Shown here: one piece after another, positions 2,865-17,862 of the stretch
How the letters are laid out: every line of letters starts with the position of its first letter
How positions within the stretch are numbered: position 1 is the first letter of the stretch
IMG/VR virus record: IMGVR_UViG_3300017726_000116
Location: 1-20,295 of that record
Direction: 5' to 3' (one strand)
DNA length: 20,295 nucleotides
Origin: a virus
Translations under genes and position numbers: made by a program
Notes under the pieces: model-generated
Databases searched by the model: none
Seen by the model: only the letters and a program-made list of their open reading frames with translations
What the model was told of the DNA's origin: nothing

Positions 2865-3848
2865 TTAGTTTCTCTGCTGGACACTCCTGCTTGCGCGCGC
2901 CCTGTCGAGACCTCGCTCTTGCATGAGATACGCAATAGCATCGTCTCGATTAGTAAAGCGAGGAACATCAAGGCGATTTTGATTAACGCCCTGCGTCACG
3001 GTAAACATAGGCCCACCACCCATATTGACTAAGCGGTCGTAAGCAACGGCAAGATTGTTAGGATCAGCACCGGGGGCATTGAGCCCTCTGAGTGCCGCCA
3101 TGGCTTCATCAAGATCGCGGAATCTAACATTTTCAAATCCACGCCCCTCAAGTCCAAAGCCGCCTTCTACATCGCGTCCTGAGTAACGATCAATCAAGCC
3201 CTGCTTGCGCGCCTTAAATTCTTCGACTCGTCGCCTGTTTTCCTCAAACCTACGAAGGCCTTCAAGTCGACGCTCTTCAATCGCGCGTCTTTCTTCGGCC
3301 GTTAATTGTGGTGCTCGTGTTTGACCTGCACCTACAAATTGCACCGCGTCAGGATCTTCTAATTCGTTACGTGCATAATCTAGTGCTTCCTGCCGTGTGC
3401 CAAATGATTGATCACCAGCAAAAAAGGTGGGTTGATCTACAGGTTGACCTGCGGCAGAAATACTCGCGATTCCTCCTTGAGGACCCGGAGGCATTTGTCC
3501 GGTGTATTGGCCTGTTCGCTCATCAAATCCCGGTGTTCCGCCTGCATACACCGTATCATTAGTGTCTTTTTGAGGGGCTTGGCTTTGCATAAATTGTGAG
3601 TACATTGGCGCCGGTGGCGGAGCCATACCAAACGCCGGTTGTTGCATCCCCCCTCTCTGCGCGCTAAACAGGTCTATGTCAGAAAAGGGACTAGAAAAAT
3701 CTGCGTAAGGGTTTTCATAGCTCGCGTAGGGGTTTTCATAGCTCGCGTAGGGATCTTGATATGGCTGTGGCTCAGGAGGCTGATACGATCGCTCTGATCC
3801 GCCAAATAGATCAATAGAGTTATAAGGGTTGAAATCAAAATAGTTCAT
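2865..3848 (-). CDS. Hypothetical Pro/Gln/Tyr-rich phage protein with short tandem repeats
   Basis: I do not recognise this 327-residue protein. The N-terminal 110 residues are low complexity, rich in P, Q, Y, S and M, with a repeated NPYASYE unit near residues 33-47 that matches a 21-bp DNA repeat. Residues about 175-215 are highly charged and probably helical (ERRAIEERRLEGLRRFEENR). Two similar segments, FGTRQEALDYARNEL and FTNRDDAIAYLMQERGLDRA, may be related small modules. There is no signal peptide or membrane segment. The start is supported by AGGAGTAGACC before ATG, and the SD overlaps the TAG stop of the holin gene. The position between holin and lysozyme would suit a virion-associated or assembly protein, but no function is shown. 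Confidence 0.8.
   Translation of the reverse strand: MNYFDFNPYNSIDLFGGSERSYQPPEPQPYQDPYASYENPYASYENPYADFSSPFSDIDLFSAQRGGMQQPAFGMAPPPAPMYSQFMQSQAPQKDTNDTVYAGGTPGFDERTGQYTGQMPPGPQGGIASISAAGQPVDQPTFFAGDQSFGTRQEALDYARNELEDPDAVQFVGAGQTRAPQLTAEERRAIEERRLEGLRRFEENRRRVEEFKARKQGLIDRYSGRDVEGGFGLEGRGFENVRFRDLDEAMAALRGLNAPGADPNNLAVAYDRLVNMGGGPMFTVTQGVNQNRLDVPRFTNRDDAIAYLMQERGLDRARASRSVQQRN
3703..3752 (-). repeat. 21-bp tandem repeat inside the Pro/Gln/Tyr-rich gene
   Basis: Two exact copies of a 21-bp unit beginning GGGTTTTCATAGCTCGCG (plus strand) start at 3709 and 3730, with partial units on either side. The period is a multiple of three, so copy number can change without a frameshift. Each unit encodes one NPYASYE-type heptad. 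Confidence 0.8.
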
Positions 3849-7154: not shown

Positions 7155-10100
7155 TTAGTTTGATTCAAGCTCTTCAATACGAGCAGTAAGTTCTTGGATT
7201 GCTTTGACAAGCACTGGTATTAATGCGGCTTCCGCCACTTCTTGTGAACCATCTTCTCTATCGTCCCAAAGTGTAAAGCCGTCTTTAATACTATCGTCAG
7301 CGTCTATAGCCGCTTTTACTTCTTGCGCTATGAAGCCGTGATTAGTGTGAGCATTTTTGAATACTTCAGTTGAGTCAGCTTCGTAAGCGTTAAAGGTTTC
7401 TGGTAGTTCGCCAAGTGTTTTGTACTTAAAGGTACGAGGACGCAAAGCGTTTACAAACGAAAGGCCCGCCATAGAGTCTTCGATGTCTTTTTTGTATCGT
7501 TCATCTGATACTGTAGACCAAGTTACATTTCCGTGTGCGGCCCTTATGTCGTCTGAGCCAGAGCCTATTGTTGTGTAACCTGCATCACAACTAAGATTAA
7601 AACCAAAGCCTTGTGCTTTATCACTAGTAGCCGATGAAACATCGCTTTGGCTTCCTACGATTACAGTGTAGTTGCCCGTCGTTAAAGCATCACCAGCCCC
7701 AAATCCCATTAGAGTATTGTCAACGCCTGTGCTGATTAGTTGGCCTGCACTTCCACCAACTGCAACGTTTTTAACGCTTGTGGAGGAGGTGGTGTTTTGC
7801 GACATTAAGGCTCTTCTGCCGACGGCAACGCTATCATTTCCTGCCGTCTCAGCACCTAAAGAGTTTGCCCCAATTGCTACATTGTCAGCACCTGTAGTAA
7901 TAGCATCACCTGCCGTCCATCCAACAGCAGTGTTTTCATCGCCTGTGGTATTACTTCCTAACGCATCTCGGCCAACAGAAGTGTTATTGCTGGCAGTTGT
8001 GTTGCCCTCTAAGGCGCCTTGACCGACTGCTGTATTATTTGATCCAGTAGTGTTGGATAGCAATGCTCTATAACCAACGCCCGAGTTGTTGGAAGCTGTA
8101 GTGTTGGCCTTTAGTGCTTCACGACCTACGGCAACGTTAGTTCCGCCTGTAGTGTTCGACTGTAAAGACCCTTGACCAACGGCAGTGTTTTCTGGTCCTG
8201 TCGTGTTCGCATACATAGAATTCATACCCACAGCGACATTGCTATTAGCTGTTGTATTCCCACGTAGAGCTTGCACGCCTATGCCTGTGTTCTGTGCGCC
8301 AGTCGTGTTAAGAGTAAGCGAATCATACCCCACTGCTGTGTTGTTGGCCGCAGTCGTATTAGCATCAAGCGAGCCGTAACCTAATGCTGTGTTGTTTTGG
8401 CCTGTGGTGTTGGCTAACAGTGCAAACGCACCAAGTGCCGTATTGTTAATTCCTGTGGTTACTGCCGCACCTGCTGATACACCCATAAGCGTGTTATTAG
8501 CGCCGGTTGTCATGCTATAACCTGCAACATAACCAACAGCAGTGTTATTTGCATCTGCCGCTGAGGTGTTGTTTTGCGTAAACAACGCAGAATAACCTAT
8601 AGCCGTTGACCTGCTTCCTAGCGTTTCTTGCCCTAAAGTGTTTACGCCAATAGCTACGTTGAAATCAGAGTCTGTTAACGCATCACCAGCAAGTCCGCCA
8701 ATGAGCGTGTTAGAAACGCCTGTAGTAACTGCGGCTCCTGCGTTATCTCCTACGGCTACGTTGTAAGCATTAGTTGCTGAAGTGAAGTTTTGAAGTAGTA
8801 AAGCATCTCGCCCAATGGCAACTGACTTACTACCTTTAGTATCGCTTGAAAGTGCTTGGCTACCCATTGCGATGTTACTATCGCCTGTCGTAAGAGCATC
8901 ACCAGAAAGACCACCTACGAGTGTGTTGAATGTGCCTGTGGTTACTGCCGCACCTGAGTTATGCCCTACAGCTACGTTATACATATTGCCAGCTGATGCA
9001 GGGTTTTGCGCGTTTAAAGCAAATGTGCCGATTGCTACACTTTCAGAGCCTAAGACATTTGTTGTCATGGCAGAGTAACCAATGGCTACGTTGTTGTCAG
9101 CATCTGTAAGAGCATCGCCAGCAAGCCCACCCATTAAGGTGTTTTGAGTGCCTGTGGTTACTGCTCCACCTGCGTTATATCCTACTGCTGTATTAAGAGC
9201 ATTTGCCGCACTGCTGTTTGATTGTGCGCCTAAAGCGTTCCAACCAATAGCTGTACTGTACTGACCTAATATTTCAGAGCTTAAAGCCCCATAACCTACG
9301 GCTGTGGTGCGATCAGCATCAGTCAGTGCATCACCTGCAAGACCACCCACGAATGTGTTTTCAATGCCTGTGGTTACTGACCCACCAGCAAACATACCAA
9401 CTGCTGTATTATAAGCATCGGTAGCTGAAGTAAAGTTTTGAGCAACCAAGGCTTGATAACCAATCGCTACACTTCTACTACCTTGAGTATCACCGCCTAA
9501 AGCACCTTTGCCCACTGCTACGTTGTAATCAGCATCTGTAAGTGAATCACCTGCTAAACTACCGATGAGGGTGTTGTCTATGCCTGTGGTTATATAAAAA
9601 CCAGCATCCTTTCCGACAGCGGTGTTATTTGATCCTGTCGTATTAGACGTTAAGGCGCTTCTGCCCAAGCCCGTGTTATTTGCTCCGGTTGTGTTCTGCC
9701 CTAAAGAGGAACTGCCCACCGCTGTGTTATCGTCTGCCGTGGTGTTAGCATCCATAGCAAAAGCACCAACAGAAGTGTTGTGTGTGCCTGTGGTTACGTC
9801 ATTACCTGCGTTATAGCCGACCGCTGTGTTGTACGTGCCAGAGCTATCGGTAACATTCATGTTAGCCAAAGCCCTAGAGCCTACCGCAACATTATAAAAA
9901 CCTGTTGTATTGGCGCTAAGGGCTTTATAACCAAGACCAGTATTCTCGCCACCAGTTGTTATTGCGTCACCAACCAAACCACCAATAAGCGTATTGCTTA
10001 CGCCTGTAGTTACTGATACACCCGCATTAGCGCCAACAGCTACGTTGTAAGCACTAGTTGCACTTGTAAAGTTTTGAGCATTAAGAGCTTGGTGTCCGAC

Positions 10101-11591
10101 TGCTACACTGCTACTACCTTGTGTGTCGTTTCTTAGAGCATAAGCGCCTAGCGCGGTGTTCTTAGTGCCTACTGTAACTGCGCTTGCCGCATTAGAGCCA
10201 AAGGCCGCGTTTTCTGCACCTGTAGTCGCCGCACCTAAAGAAGCGTGACCTACGGCAGTATTGTTAGAAGCCGTAGTATTTGCATCCAGAGCCTCGTTGC
10301 CCACAGCAGTATTTGTTGCGCCAGTCGTGTTTGCACCCAAAGCACTTGGGCCAACCGCTACGTTTCCTGCGGCTGTAGTATTGGCATCTAGCGCTTGATA
10401 GCCGACCGCTACATTGGAAGCACCTGTGGTGTTTGCCCGCATTGCTTGGTAGCCAAGTGCAACGTTATTTGAAGCAGTTGTACTAAAGCGTAAAGCCTCA
10501 CGGCCTACAGCAACACTGCTACCTCCAGTAGTGTTGGTAAAGAACGCTTGGTCGCCTATTGCAATGTTGTTTGCACCGCTAGTGTTTGCAGTTGCGGCTT
10601 GATTACCTATTGCTACATTACTGCCACCACTTAACGAGCCATCGTCTAATGCGGCATCACCCAGCGCCACATTGCCTGTACCCGTAGGATAGTTCCCATC
10701 CAGCTTGATTGTGCCGCCGTCTACTGACAGGTTGCCTGCGACTGTAGCGCCGTCGGTTACAGCAGTACCTGTAACGTCGATGCCTGTATTCGTTGTTGCA
10801 ATTTTGGCTGACCCATTAAAATACGCAGTAACTGCACCATCAGTGACGGCAGTCATCATGAACTCGTTATCCGCCGCATTTTTTAACTGAAAATCTGTAG
10901 CCAACACCTTAAGGTCATTTGTACCTTGATCGCTAATGTAGCTATTAGAACCATCGTGATAAATCTGTAGGTCAGAGCCAGCACCGAAGACCGCTTTAGC
11001 GTTGTCACCGAACTCAAGCGCCGAATCAGAGCTATCCCATACCGCGTTGTAGCTTGCGCCGGTTAGAGTCAGGTCATCGCCTGAAGACATGGTAAGGCCG
11101 GTGCCGCCCGAGGTATTACCCGCAACCAACACTTCCGCCAGCGTATCGGTAATACCGGGATCGACTAGCGCCATAGCATCGACTACTGCCGCACCAGAAC
11201 CTGCTCCGTCGAGATAAACTACGGCTGTCTTGCCGGTTGCAATGGTGACGTTTGCACCAGAGCCCTGAGAGATAGTGATCGACTGCGAGCCAGTGGTCGC
11301 ATTTTCGATAAACATCACACGCGAAACGGTATTCGGTGCAATGGTCAATGTGCGGGTAGCGCTAAGCGTGGCCGACGAAGTGACCTTGAAGTAGAACGAT
11401 CGAGCTGGGTCAGTGGCGCCATCCGCTACCGTCGTGGTAGCGTCAGCGTCTGAAGAGAAGCAATCCTGCGTGTTATAACCTAACGCTTCGCCGATGAGCT
11501 CAAGGGATGTATTTGTGGTTGTACCCCACGTTCCCGAGCCTTCACCTGTCGCAAGCTCAGTAAGGCGCAAGTTGTTGACATAAGTAGCCAT
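7155..11591 (-). CDS. Giant tail fibre/adhesin: beta-roll repeats with C-terminal S74 self-cleaving chaperone
   Basis: The 1478-residue protein is a modular receptor-binding fibre. Residues 1-300 form a phage-type N-terminal module, with VNNLRLTELATGEGSGTWG at the start and a DLQIYHDGSNSYISD block near 207. Residues 306 to about 1316 are about 70 short rungs of the form NTAVGxxAL..NTTG, like the left-handed beta-roll heads of YadA-type trimeric adhesins. Residues 1362-1478 are a peptidase S74 intramolecular chaperone: SDERYKKDI gives the Ser1362/Lys1367 dyad that cuts the chaperone off after trimer folding, followed by HGFIAQEVK and a final coiled coil (LVKAIQELTARIEELES). AGAGGA at 7 nt supports the start. 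Expected location is the tail tip, binding the host surface. Confidence 0.92.
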   Translation of the reverse strand: MATYVNNLRLTELATGEGSGTWGTTTNTSLELIGEALGYNTQDCFSSDADATTTVADGATDPARSFYFKVTSSATLSATRTLTIAPNTVSRVMFIENATTGSQSITISQGSGANVTIATGKTAVVYLDGAGSGAAVVDAMALVDPGITDTLAEVLVAGNTSGGTGLTMSSGDDLTLTGASYNAVWDSSDSALEFGDNAKAVFGAGSDLQIYHDGSNSYISDQGTNDLKVLATDFQLKNAADNEFMMTAVTDGAVTAYFNGSAKIATTNTGIDVTGTAVTDGATVAGNLSVDGGTIKLDGNYPTGTGNVALGDAALDDGSLSGGSNVAIGNQAATANTSGANNIAIGDQAFFTNTTGGSSVAVGREALRFSTTASNNVALGYQAMRANTTGASNVAVGYQALDANTTAAGNVAVGPSALGANTTGATNTAVGNEALDANTTASNNTAVGHASLGAATTGAENAAFGSNAASAVTVGTKNTALGAYALRNDTQGSSSVAVGHQALNAQNFTSATSAYNVAVGANAGVSVTTGVSNTLIGGLVGDAITTGGENTGLGYKALSANTTGFYNVAVGSRALANMNVTDSSGTYNTAVGYNAGNDVTTGTHNTSVGAFAMDANTTADDNTAVGSSSLGQNTTGANNTGLGRSALTSNTTGSNNTAVGKDAGFYITTGIDNTLIGSLAGDSLTDADYNVAVGKGALGGDTQGSRSVAIGYQALVAQNFTSATDAYNTAVGMFAGGSVTTGIENTFVGGLAGDALTDADRTTAVGYGALSSEILGQYSTAIGWNALGAQSNSSAANALNTAVGYNAGGAVTTGTQNTLMGGLAGDALTDADNNVAIGYSAMTTNVLGSESVAIGTFALNAQNPASAGNMYNVAVGHNSGAAVTTGTFNTLVGGLSGDALTTGDSNIAMGSQALSSDTKGSKSVAIGRDALLLQNFTSATNAYNVAVGDNAGAAVTTGVSNTLIGGLAGDALTDSDFNVAIGVNTLGQETLGSRSTAIGYSALFTQNNTSAADANNTAVGYVAGYSMTTGANNTLMGVSAGAAVTTGINNTALGAFALLANTTGQNNTALGYGSLDANTTAANNTAVGYDSLTLNTTGAQNTGIGVQALRGNTTANSNVAVGMNSMYANTTGPENTAVGQGSLQSNTTGGTNVAVGREALKANTTASNNSGVGYRALLSNTTGSNNTAVGQGALEGNTTASNNTSVGRDALGSNTTGDENTAVGWTAGDAITTGADNVAIGANSLGAETAGNDSVAVGRRALMSQNTTSSTSVKNVAVGGSAGQLISTGVDNTLMGFGAGDALTTGNYTVIVGSQSDVSSATSDKAQGFGFNLSCDAGYTTIGSGSDDIRAAHGNVTWSTVSDERYKKDIEDSMAGLSFVNALRPRTFKYKTLGELPETFNAYEADSTEVFKNAHTNHGFIAQEVKAAIDADDSIKDGFTLWDDREDGSQEVAEAALIPVLVKAIQELTARIEELESN
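7644..10676 (-). repeat. Coding repeat array of the fibre (about 70 rungs of 14-15 residues)
   Basis: The protein-level consensus is NTAVGxxAL(x)ANTTG, repeated without long gaps over about 1010 residues. The DNA units have diverged, so the repetition is stronger in protein than in DNA. In trimeric adhesins each such unit forms one turn of a beta roll; here that fold is inferred from the motif. Confidence 0.88.
8547..9626 (-). repeat. Five consecutive 216-bp (72-residue) super-repeats in the fibre
   Basis: Units start at residues 656, 728, 800, 872 and 944 with a spacing of exactly 72; a sixth partial start is at 1016 and an isolated unit spans 516-587. Each runs NTAVGxxAG..VTTG..NTLIGGLAGDALTDAD..VAIG..AL...GS.S.AIG..AL..QN.TSA. 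DNA copies also align at 216 bp, for example CATCACCAG at 8681 and 8897. Confidence 0.85.
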
Positions 11592-12952: not shown

Positions 12953-13747
12953 TTAATGCTGTGTTGCGACAGCCTGATATTTGCGCTTCTTGAGCACCTT
13001 CTCGACTTGACGATAGTGCCATTCCTTCTCAGTTTGCAAGGAATTAAGCTCTTTTGCGATGTATCTGTAGCCTCGGCCACGGTTGTGCAGTTTGTGGATA
13101 ACTCGAATCCACTCCTGCTCCTCGGGCACTTCAACAAGGCGCACACGCTTTTTGTTGCCATGCTTCTCTTCCTCGGTGCGCCAGCCATAGGGCACTCCGC
13201 CACCGATGTAATAACCTCGCGAAGCCCAGTCCATTTTGCCTTCTCCGAAGCGATCCCGGATGTTCGCGTGTTCGATCTCCGCTACCGCAGACAGAACCAT
13301 TAGCATGATCTTGTTGACCATGTCGTTCATGTCAAAACGCTGATCGAGGCCGTGCACCTTGGGCCGCTTCTTGTGTACGACTGGCATATCGCCGAACTGC
13401 TCGCAGAAAAAGAGCTGAATGCCGATGTCTTCCAAGATCGGAATAGTCGATAACAAATCCTGAGCTGATCGAGAAAAGCGATCAAGGCGGGTCGCTATGA
13501 CCACGTCGTGCTCCTCAATGACGTCAGTCATGGCCCTCGACGCGGGTCGTTCGAGAATGTCGGTCGTGCCTGACACCCCGTCGTCGATAAACCATTGGTC
13601 AATAGCCCGGTTGTACTTGTTGATCGAAAAGTTGGTGATCAACTGCTTTTGCTGATCAATAGAAACACCAGAACGGCACTGCTCCTGCGTTGAGACGCGG
13701 ACGTAGCCATAAATCCGGTGTTTGTACTCGCGAGGTTGAACGATCAC
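12953..13747 (-). CDS. Serine recombinase (resolvase/invertase catalytic domain, short C-terminal DNA-binding part)
   Basis: From GTG 13747 the 264-residue protein has the resolvase fold. RIYGYVRVST places the nucleophile at Ser19, followed by SIDQQKQL. RLDRFSRS near 87-94 is the conserved DRxSR block, and a long E-helix-like segment runs from about 143 to 167. The C-terminal part has GGGVPYGWR and a helix-turn-helix-like tail (GYRYIAKELNSLQTEKEWHY). It is longer than invertases (about 190) and shorter than large serine integrases (450 or more), lacking the zinc-ribbon part. AAAGGAGG 6 nt before GTG fixes this start; it overlaps the upstream stop in GTGA. Integration, inversion or resolution are all possible. 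Confidence 0.88.
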   Translation of the reverse strand: MIVQPREYKHRIYGYVRVSTQEQCRSGVSIDQQKQLITNFSINKYNRAIDQWFIDDGVSGTTDILERPASRAMTDVIEEHDVVIATRLDRFSRSAQDLLSTIPILEDIGIQLFFCEQFGDMPVVHKKRPKVHGLDQRFDMNDMVNKIMLMVLSAVAEIEHANIRDRFGEGKMDWASRGYYIGGGVPYGWRTEEEKHGNKKRVRLVEVPEEQEWIRVIHKLHNRGRGYRYIAKELNSLQTEKEWHYRQVEKVLKKRKYQAVATQH

Positions 13748-13983
13748 TTTATGCCTCCTTTGTAACCGTAGTCTGCCATCTCCTCGTGCAGACGCTTCCA
13801 ATCGATGTCGAGCGGGTGATGATCATCTGCCCGGTCAGCAAACATGGTAAAGCCATCCTTCTGAAGCTCGACAGCTCGGTAAAACTTGGGCACACCATCA
13901 TAAACGATGTCCAGACCATGCAACTTGCAGGTCCTGCGCACCCGGTTGTAATAGCGCTTTTTCTCCTGAGCGTTAAGCACCAC
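13744..13983 (-). CDS. Small basic hypothetical protein upstream of the recombinase
   Basis: The protein of about 79 residues starts at GTG 13983 or at the next GTG, 13980, both just after GGAGGAGG; the spacing does not decide between them. It opens with a basic helix (NAQEKKRYYNRVRRTCKLHG). A compact mixed region follows (LDIVYDGVPKFYRAVELQKD), then an acidic and aromatic end. It could bind nucleic acid through the basic helix, but I recognise no family. It overlaps the upstream gene by 11 bp and the recombinase start in GTGA, so it is probably co-translated with the recombinase and may be a partner or directionality-type factor. That is inference from position only. Confidence 0.65.
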   Translation of the reverse strand: MVLNAQEKKRYYNRVRRTCKLHGLDIVYDGVPKFYRAVELQKDGFTMFADRADDHHPLDIDWKRLHEEMADYGYKGGIK

Positions 13984-14380: not shown

Positions 14381-14436
14381 CTGCGGATGGTCGCACAGGC
14401 CGTGTCGATGTGCAAGTCTTTGTAGAATTAAAAATA

Positions 14437-14462
14437 ATTGTATTTATTTGTATAAATTTGTA
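14437..14462. repeat. TTGTA motifs at exact 10-bp spacing
   Basis: ATTGTA starts at 14437 and TTTGTA at 14447 and 14457, exactly one helical turn apart; another TTTGTA is at 14419. Same-face phasing is typical of cooperative protein binding or small iterons. Confidence 0.55.
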
Positions 14463-14493
14463 GACATGGACACGGAAATATGAGACCATGTCT
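14462..14493. promoter_or_regulatory. 8-bp inverted repeat, candidate operator
   Basis: AGACATGG (14462-14469) and CCATGTCT (14486-14493) are perfect inverted copies around a 16-bp spacer. Half-sites are 24 bp centre to centre. It lies directly upstream of the plus-strand cassette and could also fold as a leader hairpin. Confidence 0.5.
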
Positions 14494-14532
14494 TTGCGGT
14501 CGGGGGTTCCGGCCTTAACCAAGGAGAGAAAG

Positions 14533-14985
14533 ATGAGTGCTTATTTATGTGACCCGGCGGATTTCGTGGCTTTGGCTCGATACGCCAAGCGACCTTGTAA
14601 CGGCTTCAACGGTTACAACCTTTTCACTAAAGAGCGAATTGGTGGTGACGACAGCGAGCTTAATGTTCGAGAAATTGCCTTGAAGCTTGCGACTGCCAAC
14701 ATCTGCTCTGTCGCCTATCGATATCCGCGTGAGCCTTTCGGCGGATTCCTCAAGGACGAAGAGGAGATGGTTGAGTTCATGTGTGAAGTAGCGCAGGAGG
14801 CGCGAAAAAATCGCATTCCTCCAAGCCACAGCGAGGCTTTCATGTTGGCCGCTCAGGTTGAGTACCAAAGCTGTGAGCGCCCTGACTGGATCGAGCAAGA
14901 CGCCTACTGGATCTTGCAAAGCATCCGAAACGACGCGGGTCGCAATATGGCCCAAGCAGTAGAAGACCTTAAGGAGGTAGCGTAA
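14533..14985 (+). CDS. Hypothetical protein, first gene of the plus-strand cassette
   Basis: ATG 14533 is chosen because AAGGAGAGAAAG precedes it directly; an upstream in-frame start at 14488 has no such site. The 150-residue product opens MSAYLCDPADFVALARYAKR and contains LNVREIALKLATANICSVAY and a C-terminal helical part ending AQAVEDLKEVA. There is no membrane segment or signal peptide. Proteins with this kind of start and an LATANICSVAYRY-type core occur in phages and plasmids as uncharacterised small proteins, from recollection. It is the only strand switch in the window and shares TAATG with the next gene. Opposite orientation suggests separate timing from the late genes. Confidence 0.8.
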   Translation: MSAYLCDPADFVALARYAKRPCNGFNGYNLFTKERIGGDDSELNVREIALKLATANICSVAYRYPREPFGGFLKDEEEMVEFMCEVAQEARKNRIPPSHSEAFMLAAQVEYQSCERPDWIEQDAYWILQSIRNDAGRNMAQAVEDLKEVA

Positions 14986-15326
14986 TGAAAACTGCACCAC
15001 GTTTTTACACTGGAAACCCGGAGACTGTGCTGGCCTACCAGCCAGTCGATCTGGAAAAGCTGAACGCTGAACTGCGCACCGCAGAACAGCTTTGGAATAA
15101 GGAGTGGCGCGCTCAAGGCGCCACCGACGAGGGAAGCTGTTGCGGAGGCAAGGGTATCCAAATCTGGTTCTGTGGACCTCGCAAGCGAATTGCTGAGCCC
15201 AAAACCATCATCCCAGCGCCGCCGGTACAGGGAAACGTGTCTGCGCAACGCAGTGTGGGTCCCGCTCTTGAGTATCTCAAGGAGCAGGGCATCGAGGCTC
15301 GTTACTATGACGGGTGGATGGATTAA
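14985..15326 (+). CDS. Hypothetical protein, second gene of the plus-strand cassette
   Basis: The 113-residue product starts MKTAPRFYTGNPETVLAYQP after AAGGAGG, 5 nt before the ATG. It has a CC pair in EGSCCGGKGIQIWFCGPRKR, with a third Cys nearby, and a C-terminal segment ALEYLKEQGIEARYYDGWMD that looks like a helix and strand. No signal or membrane segment is seen and I recognise no family. It is tightly coupled to the first gene (TAATG) and overlaps the third by 20 bp, so the three are probably one transcript. Confidence 0.75.
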   Translation: MKTAPRFYTGNPETVLAYQPVDLEKLNAELRTAEQLWNKEWRAQGATDEGSCCGGKGIQIWFCGPRKRIAEPKTIIPAPPVQGNVSAQRSVGPALEYLKEQGIEARYYDGWMD

Positions 15327-15507
15327 CGCCCGGTTGCGCCAGCGCGCAGAGCTTTTATTGATGGGAGGCTATCGAGAGGACGAGGTGGTCTCCAATCTTC
15401 TGGTCGAGTACCCGTCACTCGATGAGTTTCAACAAGAAGACCTTCCTAAAATTGTGAAACAGGTCAGAGAGACCCTATCCCCTTCTCCTCGCTCGACGTC
15501 GCTCTAG
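15307..15507 (+). CDS. Small hypothetical protein, third gene of the plus-strand cassette
   Basis: The 66-residue product from ATG 15307 is MTGGWINARLRQRAELLLMG, then GYREDEVVSNLLVEYPSLDE and FQQEDLPKIVKQVRETLSPS to the end. It is helical and could contain a small helix-turn-helix (RAELLLMGGYREDEVVSNLL), but this is not clear enough to claim. GAGG about 9 nt upstream is a modest ribosome site. It overlaps the preceding gene by 20 bp and the ART-kinase gene on the other strand by 44 bp tail to tail. I see no room for an intrinsic terminator between the converging genes. Confidence 0.62.
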   Translation: MTGGWINARLRQRAELLLMGGYREDEVVSNLLVEYPSLDEFQQEDLPKIVKQVRETLSPSPRSTSL

Positions 15508-17455
15508 CAGTCTTTTGCTTAGAGCCTGAAACGCCGGGCTTTCCGAGATCATATCCGCTATCTCTTCCGCCGCTTCGTAGTCGAATGTCTGTGCCTTCGA
15601 GTAATCTTCCCGTGTCTTCGAGGACTGGTCTTGGCTGGTCGATCGCGACCGTGTTATCGATTCTCGTGTAGCCATCTGCTATTCCCTCCTTGCGCAGTAT
15701 ATCATAAGTAGCCGAGGGCTTATTGCCCACTTTGTTCAGGTAGTCTGTCGGTATCATGCGGCCAGTCTTATAAAACCGCCGGAACATTCGGATTGCCGCT
15801 TCTTCTGCTGGCACTTGCACGTCCACGACCTGCACGTTGTATCCGGCGTTCCTGTATCGTTCGACTTTGCCTCGAATCTTGTCCGCATTCTCTCCCACCG
15901 TTGGGATGACCAAGTTATCTCCCTCATCGATCGCCAGTTGCTCCATTTGATTGATAATGGCTTTCGATTCGGTGTGTACAGCGTTTGCACCAACCCCACC
16001 CGCGTACTCAGGGAGAAGTTTCTTCGCTTCATCTGAATCAATGATGGTAGCGTCATACTTACGCGCTATTGGGTTCGATATTGAACTTTTACCAGATGCC
16101 GGGGGACCCAAGACAATAACTGCCGTCTTATCACCCGTGCGTGTCGCGGGGCCGGGGTAAGGCAAGCCGTCGTCTGTCCAAGCCAAGCTTTTAGACTGGT
16201 CGTACAATCGGTCAATGGCGTCATCATAGCCAATAACCTCTTCCACTTCATCGCCATTCCTAAACTGAAATACGCGGTTCTCGAGCCATTTAGGCGATCC
16301 AAATCCTTTCGTTTCGTTGGTCAGTGGTATGCGGCCAATTTGAGCCATGGCCTCAACCACCACCGGGTGATTTTCTGCAATCTCTCGCATATCTGGCGCT
16401 TTTTCATCGATTGCGCGCTCTAACACCTTGCCGAATTCGTTCAACTGCTCAGCAGAAAGGTCATTCGATGACCGCAAGGCCTTTGCGGCCGCTCGGGCAC
16501 CTAGTCCTACGATAGGAAGCACCCCGAGGCTCTGCAATCCGGCGCTAAGGTAGTTACCCTCACCGATATTCTCCGCTAAAGACGGCCCTCGCTGTCCCTC
16601 AAGCACCATTTCCTCTACGGAGACGTCACCTTCCGGGAACTCAGGGTATTCACCAAAGATATCAGCCACCCCGGCTACGCCGGTCAAACCAGCAAGCAAG
16701 TTCGCAGTCTGGGCGCCGCTGAGAAGAGGATCACCACCGCCTGAAACTCTCTCCCGCTGGTCCTGAGCACGTTGGCGGCGGTCTCGACGACGGTCTCGGT
16801 ACGTCATCGGCGACTCTTCCTCAAAGATGTCTACATCTTCGATGGCCGCGCTTGCATCATTCGGTGCCATGAGAGCACCTGCACCTATCGCCGTTGCCGC
16901 TGTCCCGCCAAGGATGTTCGCGCCCTTGTATTGAGGGTCGAATGCGGCGTTGACTGAGCGGATATCTCGCTCATCAAAGGTGTTTCTGATCGGTATGTCA
17001 CCGGCAGAGCTTAAATGACTACTAGCAAGGTCCTCTACACCCGTAATTCCATCAACATTACGAAGGTTGTAGTTGATTTCGGGCATATCCATGATGGCCG
17101 CTTCAGGATTTCGCGCCTGATAGTCATCAAAACCAATGGTTCCTGAGCCTTTTCGCGTCAGTAGAGGGTAAATTGCAGAACCATCCTCCAGATCAGCGTA
17201 CATATCGGCCATGTCAGTGGAAGGCGTTGTATAAACTCCGGGACCTAGCGCTCCATATTCACTAGGGATGAATTCTTTAATGTCCGCTTGAGTCCCATGG
17301 TACTGAATATCGTCTGGGTCGTAGCCTTGTTGGCGCGCTCTCTCCATTCGAGATCCGCGATCCATAGGTAATTCACCATTAGCGATGCGGTAAGCGGTGT
17401 CTTTTGGGTAGCCCCGGCTCACCAGTTCGGTCATCGCTTCAAGTACGGACTTCAT
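15464..17455 (-). CDS. ADP-ribosyltransferase-like / zeta-toxin-like kinase fusion (polyvalent-type protein)
   Basis: The 663-residue protein has two recognisable ends. At residues 45-180, QYHGTQADIKEF then GPGVYTTPSTDMADMYA and IRSVNAAFDPQYKG follow the pattern of phage ART-like domains, with H53 as the NAD-binding His. Residues 445-605 form a zeta-toxin-like P-loop kinase: GPPASGKSS (450-458), IIDSDEAKKLLPEY (471-484), HTES (494-497), and RMFRRFYKTGRMIP (556-569). Zeta toxins phosphorylate UDP-activated amino sugars; that substrate is not proven here. The middle has two short hydrophobic stretches and charged linkers. The N-terminal RGYPKDTAYRIANGELPMD is a module I associate with phage multidomain proteins. 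The start overlaps the nuclease stop in TAATG. No antitoxin gene is evident. Confidence 0.78.
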   Translation of the reverse strand: MKSVLEAMTELVSRGYPKDTAYRIANGELPMDRGSRMERARQQGYDPDDIQYHGTQADIKEFIPSEYGALGPGVYTTPSTDMADMYADLEDGSAIYPLLTRKGSGTIGFDDYQARNPEAAIMDMPEINYNLRNVDGITGVEDLASSHLSSAGDIPIRNTFDERDIRSVNAAFDPQYKGANILGGTAATAIGAGALMAPNDASAAIEDVDIFEEESPMTYRDRRRDRRQRAQDQRERVSGGGDPLLSGAQTANLLAGLTGVAGVADIFGEYPEFPEGDVSVEEMVLEGQRGPSLAENIGEGNYLSAGLQSLGVLPIVGLGARAAAKALRSSNDLSAEQLNEFGKVLERAIDEKAPDMREIAENHPVVVEAMAQIGRIPLTNETKGFGSPKWLENRVFQFRNGDEVEEVIGYDDAIDRLYDQSKSLAWTDDGLPYPGPATRTGDKTAVIVLGPPASGKSSISNPIARKYDATIIDSDEAKKLLPEYAGGVGANAVHTESKAIINQMEQLAIDEGDNLVIPTVGENADKIRGKVERYRNAGYNVQVVDVQVPAEEAAIRMFRRFYKTGRMIPTDYLNKVGNKPSATYDILRKEGIADGYTRIDNTVAIDQPRPVLEDTGRLLEGTDIRLRSGGRDSGYDLGKPGVSGSKQKTARATSSEEKGIGSL

Positions 17456-17862
17456 TAGGCGGCCTTTTGATTAGGAATCCAGTCTTTTGCCAGTATATCA
17501 AGCCAGTCGTCGAAAGGAATCACTGCGCAACCCGTTAAATCAGCGTAATCCGAGTTAAATGCGCCCATCGGCAGGGTGACGCGGATGGGTTTGTTGTTGA
17601 ACTTCCAAACCAAGACGGGAATGTCGTCCCCGGCGGCCGTGCAAACCTGCTCCCACCACGCTTTTTGATACCACCAACCATCCTTGTAAGCCTTGCACTC
17701 GATCGCATAGCCGGGAATAGTGATGTCGCATAGGTTTTTCGCTTGATATTGATCAAGGTTACGCTTGCAACGGACATCGATGCCTTGCGCCTCAAAGAAA
17801 ATATTGAGTCGTTTTACGATATCCCGCTCAAATGCGGCACCCTTGTTACGTGAATCAGCCAT
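17455..17862 (-). CDS. PD-(D/E)XK nuclease, Holliday-junction-resolvase-like
   Basis: The 135-residue protein shows the core of the restriction-endonuclease fold: KGAAFERDIVKRL with Glu12, LCDITIPG with Asp46, and AIECKAYKDG with the Glu55-Cys-Lys57 signature. A Trp-rich helix (WWYQKAWWEQV) and a closing strand (IPVLVWKF) follow. Size and order fit phage Holliday-junction resolvase-like or recombination nucleases, which trim branched DNA before packaging. A role in host DNA attack is also possible. The gene follows the 496-bp non-coding zone and ends in TAATG with the ART-kinase gene. No strong SD was confirmed; the ATG at 17862 fits the family start. Confidence 0.8.
   Translation of the reverse strand: MADSRNKGAAFERDIVKRLNIFFEAQGIDVRCKRNLDQYQAKNLCDITIPGYAIECKAYKDGWWYQKAWWEQVCTAAGDDIPVLVWKFNNKPIRVTLPMGAFNSDYADLTGCAVIPFDDWLDILAKDWIPNQKAA

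Follow-up and report, generated by a model that had tools for sequence, protein, structure and literature searches.

A replaceable cargo slot of uncultivated tailed phages holds a fused ART–zeta-fold kinase gene as one of its alleles

In a 20,295-nucleotide stretch of viral DNA (the window; positions 1 to 20,295 of IMG/VR virus record IMGVR_UViG_3300017726_000116), a replaceable cargo slot lies behind a conserved nuclease gene, and the gene encoding an ART domain and a zeta-fold kinase in a single protein is one of its alleles. The whole gene is exchangeable, and its second half, a header followed by an effector, also occurs alone and in other combinations. Slot proteins are built of units in which each effector sits behind a common header consisting of an IDIF motif and an adaptor. 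The presence of differing enzymes at one spot suggests an interchangeable tool set against the host or rival viruses. On balance, we favor a reading in which the slot allele encodes a modular effector that is loaded into the particle and whose payload is exchanged under pressure from hosts or rivals. The gene, its parts, and its surroundings are as follows.

15464..17455, minus strand: ART and zeta-fold kinase protein (P0001), 663 aa, start ATG
17321..17455, minus strand: leader, residues 1–45, helical, common to variants with differing ART domains
16922..17320, minus strand: ART domain, residues 46–178, with H53, Y75, and D161 (Pfam ART-PolyVal, conserved columns, hhalign)
16856..16924, minus strand: hydrophobic stretch, residues 178–200 (sequence; pLDDT low)
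16823..16840, minus strand: EDVDIF, an IDIF-type motif, residues 206–211, first part of the header (motif enrichment)
16457..16729, minus strand: adaptor, residues 243–333, second part of the header; its 3' end is the swap junction
15614..16453, minus strand: zeta-fold kinase module, residues about 335–614, with K456, D475, R560, and R566
17455..17862, minus strand: PDDEXK_15 nuclease (PHROG 'RusA-like'), conserved left neighbor of the slot (Pfam 3.9e-9; PHROG 244 3.2e-16)
14428..17454, no strand assigned: replaceable cargo slot, bounded on both sides by flanks that are near-identical in contigs L007 and L008
18359..18886, minus strand: terminase small subunit (TerS), upstream of nuclease and slot (PHROG 51 3.7e-9; order conserved)
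14985..15326, plus strand: convergent 113-aa ORF, present beside Rel-type slots too
12953..13801, minus strand: serine recombinase beyond the slot, conserved (Pfam Resolvase 1.9e-25; order conserved)

A preliminary description of this DNA, made from its letters, had placed an ORF at 15464–17455 and read it as an ART-like domain joined to a zeta-toxin-like kinase beside a nuclease gene. The ORF holds (minus strand, 663 aa, ATG), as do the motifs at their residues (H53 in YHGT at 52–55, Walker A GPPASGKSS at 450–458 with K456, HTES, and RRFYKTGRMIP) and the joining of ART-type and zeta-fold domains in one protein. The adjoining gene is a nuclease of the PDDEXK_15 type by Pfam and PHROG, and its stop overlaps the start of the 663-aa ORF (nuclease at 17862..17455). 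The order leader–ART–header–kinase is found again in the independent contig L001 and four further contigs confirm the ART–header link, which rules out an assembly chimera. In the structure model, the middle of the protein (residues 170–383) is predicted to be disordered (pLDDT < 50). An N-terminal subdomain of the kinase module (residues 340–440) is conserved. At the extreme C-terminus, GIGSL (window 15467–15481, minus strand) recurs at the ends of slot proteins in L001, L081, and L038; this tail motif is enriched, yet is found in fibre repeats too.

Phages that are otherwise nearly identical carry different genes in the slot. With the nuclease as anchor, 188 matched stretches were found in IMG/VR and 80 loci were kept; 75 slot ORFs, that of the window counted, collapse to 45 types. 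Contig L008 shares 95.3% identity with the window up to position 17454 and 99.9% from position 14427, but the content between differs: an unrelated 873-aa protein takes the place of the ART–zeta gene. Exchange can also be partial. Contig L002 shares 94.3% identity with the window to codon 331, after which a different domain replaces the kinase. This domain, in L002 and L004, is RelA/SpoT-like as judged from a low-confidence structure model, for which all 50 listed PDB fold matches (50/50) are alarmone synthetases; the fold search alone revealed the likeness, with PF04607 (RelA/SpoT) reaching at best 20.5 bits against a cutoff of 27 and the Rel profile matching nothing among PDB sequences. Between loci, leader and header DNA stays similar while the ART and C-terminal parts differ, and N-terminal domains of at least three divergent types, each ART-like as judged from alignment, stand behind one leader type (window, L001, and L013). 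We suggest that recombination in the conserved leader, header, and slot-flanking genes would exchange the enzyme payload, and that such swaps would track changing hosts or rival phages. No common DNA repeat of 8 bases or more, as a recombinase site would present, was found at the two slot borders.

Two observations concern what lies in and beside the slot. The 873-aa alternative protein (L008 1355–3976; L007 1894–4515) has no Pfam match, as tested with the L007 copy, and ends in RPGIEAIQPI, like the C-termini of large slot proteins in L035, L054, and L059. Window positions 15333–15464 hold what looks like the remainder of a convergent 140-aa gene. L004 has this gene intact (7745–8167), which suggests that a swap cut into the neighboring gene.

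The adaptor, of ∼90 aa (window residues 243–333), recurs in slot proteins and only there among the loci compared. It is present in 79 IMG/VR contigs, has no match in 50,697 cultured phage records, and was not found in bacterial or archaeal genome contigs, so that no host is indicated. Across 109 ORF entries, with some contigs represented repeatedly, it stands before ART, ZETA, REL, PBECR5, or regions without an assignment, singly or in series. Header-ZETA occurs as a single gene in L003 and L081 and header-REL in L023 and L029; the window gene therefore looks like leader-ART fused to header-ZETA. An independent ART–zeta combination, H-ART-H-H-ZETA, is found in L136 and L137. Other arrangements are H-H-REL (L028 and L100) and H-ART-PBECR5 (L054). 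IDIF-type motifs sit at the starts, borders, and ends of adaptor proteins, with 168 instances versus 2–3 expected by shuffling, a count that kinship inflates and that leaves 67 distinct contexts. The motif is absent from the nucleases; its occurrences in capsid-region genes, inside seemingly ordinary folded proteins, were judged to be chance. A literature search on the IDIF motif returned no relevant paper.

Near the lysozyme gene, a 327-aa ORF (window 2865–3848, minus strand) has two IDLF motifs close to its N-terminus (NSIDLFGG and SDIDLFSA). It lacks the adaptor, has no PHROG or NCBIfam match, and is a possible second cargo gene.

We raise tentatively the idea that the IDIF motif and adaptor form a portable loading address, such that any effector behind the header would be packaged and delivered, and phages would assort ART, zeta-fold kinase, Rel-like synthetase, and RNase by header–effector swaps at one slot. 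Should the header prove to be such an address for packaging, this would explain how effectors are loaded by phages that lack known targeting domains. Two findings count against particle loading as the main reading: the adaptor is absent from portal, major head protein, and terminase, and the IDIF motif lies 4–31 aa upstream of the adaptor in only 45 of 73 distinct copies.

The slot lies near virion genes. In the five larger contigs compared, VapE, TerS, nuclease, slot, recombinase, fibres, TerL, portal, and major head protein mostly follow one another in this order, although TerS was not detected in one of the five. Upstream lies TerS, and the slot is on the same strand as TerS and the virion genes, among them fibres, TerL, and portal. 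Phage ARTs are often near terminase and head genes (PMC9503650). By TerL, the nearest named phages are 023Pt_psg01 (62%) and Pelagibacter phages HTVC027P and HTVC023P (58–59%), and we regard the group as one of uncultivated, mostly marine tailed phages; searched against the phage collection, the whole 663-aa protein had no match spanning most of its length. Polyvalent proteins combine two or more disparate activities per polypeptide, are encoded by a phage or conjugative element near virion or late genes, and are proposed to enter the host along with the DNA. The ART and kinase in one chain and the conserved virion-gene neighborhood support the polyvalent character proposed in the preliminary description. 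Among the fibre genes of the window is one for a 1478-aa tail fibre (7155–11591, minus strand) that has long repeats of the N-T-A-V-G type and, at its C-terminus, a Peptidase_S74 chaperone.

We suggest that the product is a polyvalent-type effector of two units, the first comprising leader and ART and the second comprising header (IDIF motif and adaptor) and zeta-fold kinase. The protein would most likely be a late product taken up into the particle, where the header would serve as a shared address by which unrelated enzymes can be loaded. On infection it would enter the host, where the ART part is predicted to ADP-ribosylate a host macromolecule and the kinase part to phosphorylate a nucleotide-like metabolite, probably not UDP-GlcNAc. 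Counting against this reading, no known virion-targeting domain was found in the protein, with no MuF match in Pfam or PHROGs, and small opposite-strand genes inside the slot are typical of a defence or moron island.

The main rival is indeed such an island, for anti-phage defence or superinfection exclusion, acting in the infected cell or lysogen, with ART, kinase, Rel, and RNase serving as abortive-infection toxins that are not injected. Toxin–antitoxin systems employ each of the zeta, Rel, ART, and BECR folds. The clean replacement of cassettes between conserved genes resembles defence hotspots, and a serine recombinase is nearby. However, PADLOC found no defence match, no paired antitoxin specific to the kinase is present, the slot shares its strand with TerS and the virion genes, and a common header before different enzymes fits shared targeting better than it fits independent toxins. 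We consider the island possible, at perhaps one chance in four, and continue to favor a particle-loaded effector.

The ART identity of the N-terminal half is established indirectly. Its own match to ART-PolyVal (25.2 bits, E = 3.1e-5) is below the Pfam cutoff of 31.2. The profile of window-type ARTs aligns over the whole domain (hhalign 99.1%) with that of a second group from related loci, and members of this group (L076, L068, L067, and L074) pass the Pfam cutoff with up to 68.7 bits (E = 1.2e-18 for L076). H53 and Y75 fall in invariant alignment columns and D161 is aligned with the Asp of FDPKNIRS, so the His-Tyr-Asp triad of ART-PolyVal (PF18760) and Tox-ART-HYD2 is present. These three residues are described for this ART class by Iyer et al. 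2017 (PMC5512222). The ART beta/alpha order is modeled with moderate confidence; all 50 listed PDB fold matches went to the kinase, and the ART profile matched nothing among PDB sequences. Alignment with bona fide ART-PolyVal members speaks against a fold unrelated to ART, which the preliminary description named as the outcome that would overturn it, although the fold itself drew no independent match.

The kinase half is zeta-like in fold. Pfam Zeta_toxin (PF06414) matches residues 441–596 with 66.1 bits (cutoff 22.3, E = 3.7e-18), and the structure model has pLDDT mostly 80–93. Among the 50 PDB matches listed by Foldseek, the eight best are zeta and PezT (3Q8X at E = 2.3e-9), AvrRxo1 is next, and nucleotide and polynucleotide kinases rank far behind. 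A search by sequence profile gave zeta, spanning the domain, 3.5e-5 versus 6e-4 for Pnkp1. A polynucleotide kinase or chloramphenicol phosphotransferase, a match to which would by the preliminary description refute its reading, was rejected on both searches. The catalytic residues Lys46, Asp67, Arg158, and Arg171 of 1GVN correspond to K456, D475, R560, and R566 and are all kept. In the zeta family, this Lys and both Arg are essential. Asp67 is the catalytic base (PMC3062530). Two structural library matches may be set beside these. A0A6J5LTH6 in BFVD is an uncultured phage protein of 1134 aa that bears the name anti-CBASS Acb1, a hint that zeta-fold kinases are also combined in one protein with counter-defence enzymes already known. 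A0A516LJA4 in a viral structure library (535 aa, 587 alignment columns) may be another ART–zeta protein.

As the preliminary description remarked, an obvious antitoxin is lacking: no kinase-specific candidate of the epsilon type is among the slot neighbors, and the neighboring convergent ORFs were rejected as such, for they flank Rel-type slots as well. An antitoxin acting in cis, for which E. coli EzeT is a precedent (PMC4826407), is compatible with this absence: residues 340–440 would then keep the kinase silent until cleavage. A conserved subdomain does precede every kinase in the set. We consider this unlikely; the subdomain is modeled as helix and strand without demonstrated contact to the ATP site.

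Could the kinase be a classical zeta toxin, a UDP-GlcNAc kinase that weakens the cell wall? Iyer et al. 2017 (PMC5512222) propose a cell-wall role for polyvalent zeta domains, and the Pfam match, best fold matches, and catalytic residues all agree with it. However, in a gapless sequence block between the conserved NLVI and Gly, rather than in a solved structure, UDP-GlcNAc contacts Thr118, Arg120, Glu116, and Thr128 are replaced by V520, E522, P518, and K530. The UDP-GlcNAc-binding Glu100 column is not conserved, and no relative in the set has Arg at position 120. Thr118 to Val abolishes PezT toxicity (PMC3062530), and AvrRxo1, the next structural match, has the same fold. The cell-wall reading is therefore unsupported, and an active zeta toxin of the kind already known is quite improbable. 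We suggest from these residues a zeta-fold kinase that probably has a substrate other than UDP-GlcNAc.

Selection on the slot modules is purifying. Within modules, dN/dS is 0.02–0.10 (0.02 for leader and ART, 0.06 for the N-terminal part of the kinase, and 0.03–0.05 for Rel), and 0.24 for the ART compared with that of the diverged L004. In L001 (1449–3260), 69 kinase codons are missing in frame, the R560/R566 region included; dN/dS is 0.06 in the remainder, which points to a recent loss (or else a mistake in assembly). If real, it means that the kinase is dispensable at least sometimes, which counts against our main reading. Such loss could also signal junk-like mosaic turnover, in which structural or morphogenesis genes decay and no effector role is under selection, but the purifying selection weakens this account, as does the conservation of catalytic residues across divergent copies, and we regard it as very improbable.

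The exchangeable slot turns what seemed an isolated two-domain oddity into a defined system, in which one locus has nearly identical phages differing only in effector. These natural allele pairs offer a way to ask what polyvalent effectors do, and the candidate header could reveal how they are loaded.

The system resembles several known ones in part. Zeta and PezT kinases (PF06414; 1GVN, 2P5T, and 3Q8X) share fold, Walker A, catalytic Asp, and two essential Arg with the window kinase, which differs in lacking the UDP-GlcNAc-binding residues and an antitoxin and in sitting inside a 663-aa protein. Likewise, the ART domain has the H-Y-D triad of Tox-ART-HYD2 and ART-PolyVal in the expected order and is homologous to members above the Pfam cutoff, but is short, divergent, and itself below that cutoff. 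T4 Alt, a virion-packaged ART, resembles it in the proposed mode, by which an ART would be brought into the host; Alt belongs to the R-S-E class, has no kinase fused to it, and is proven to be packaged, whereas packaging of the window protein is proposed. Polymorphic toxin systems also have a constant leader or connector and exchangeable toxin-like C-terminal domains. In contrast, the window has a phage slot, no immunity gene seen, concatenable units, and a header before each effector. Closest are the polyvalent proteins of Iyer et al. 2017 (PMC5512222), alike in having unrelated enzyme domains in one protein and a late-gene location. That work already lists ARTs, zeta-like kinases, RelA/SpoT, and PBECR in such proteins, for which it proposes injection. 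Its zeta kinases are in conjugative elements and MuF fusions, and its available text contains no ART–zeta pair, repeated header unit, or allelic cargo slot. Relative to the literature in its available portions, the header–effector unit, its single and concatenated forms, and its exact allelic replacement in near-identical phages appear to be new.
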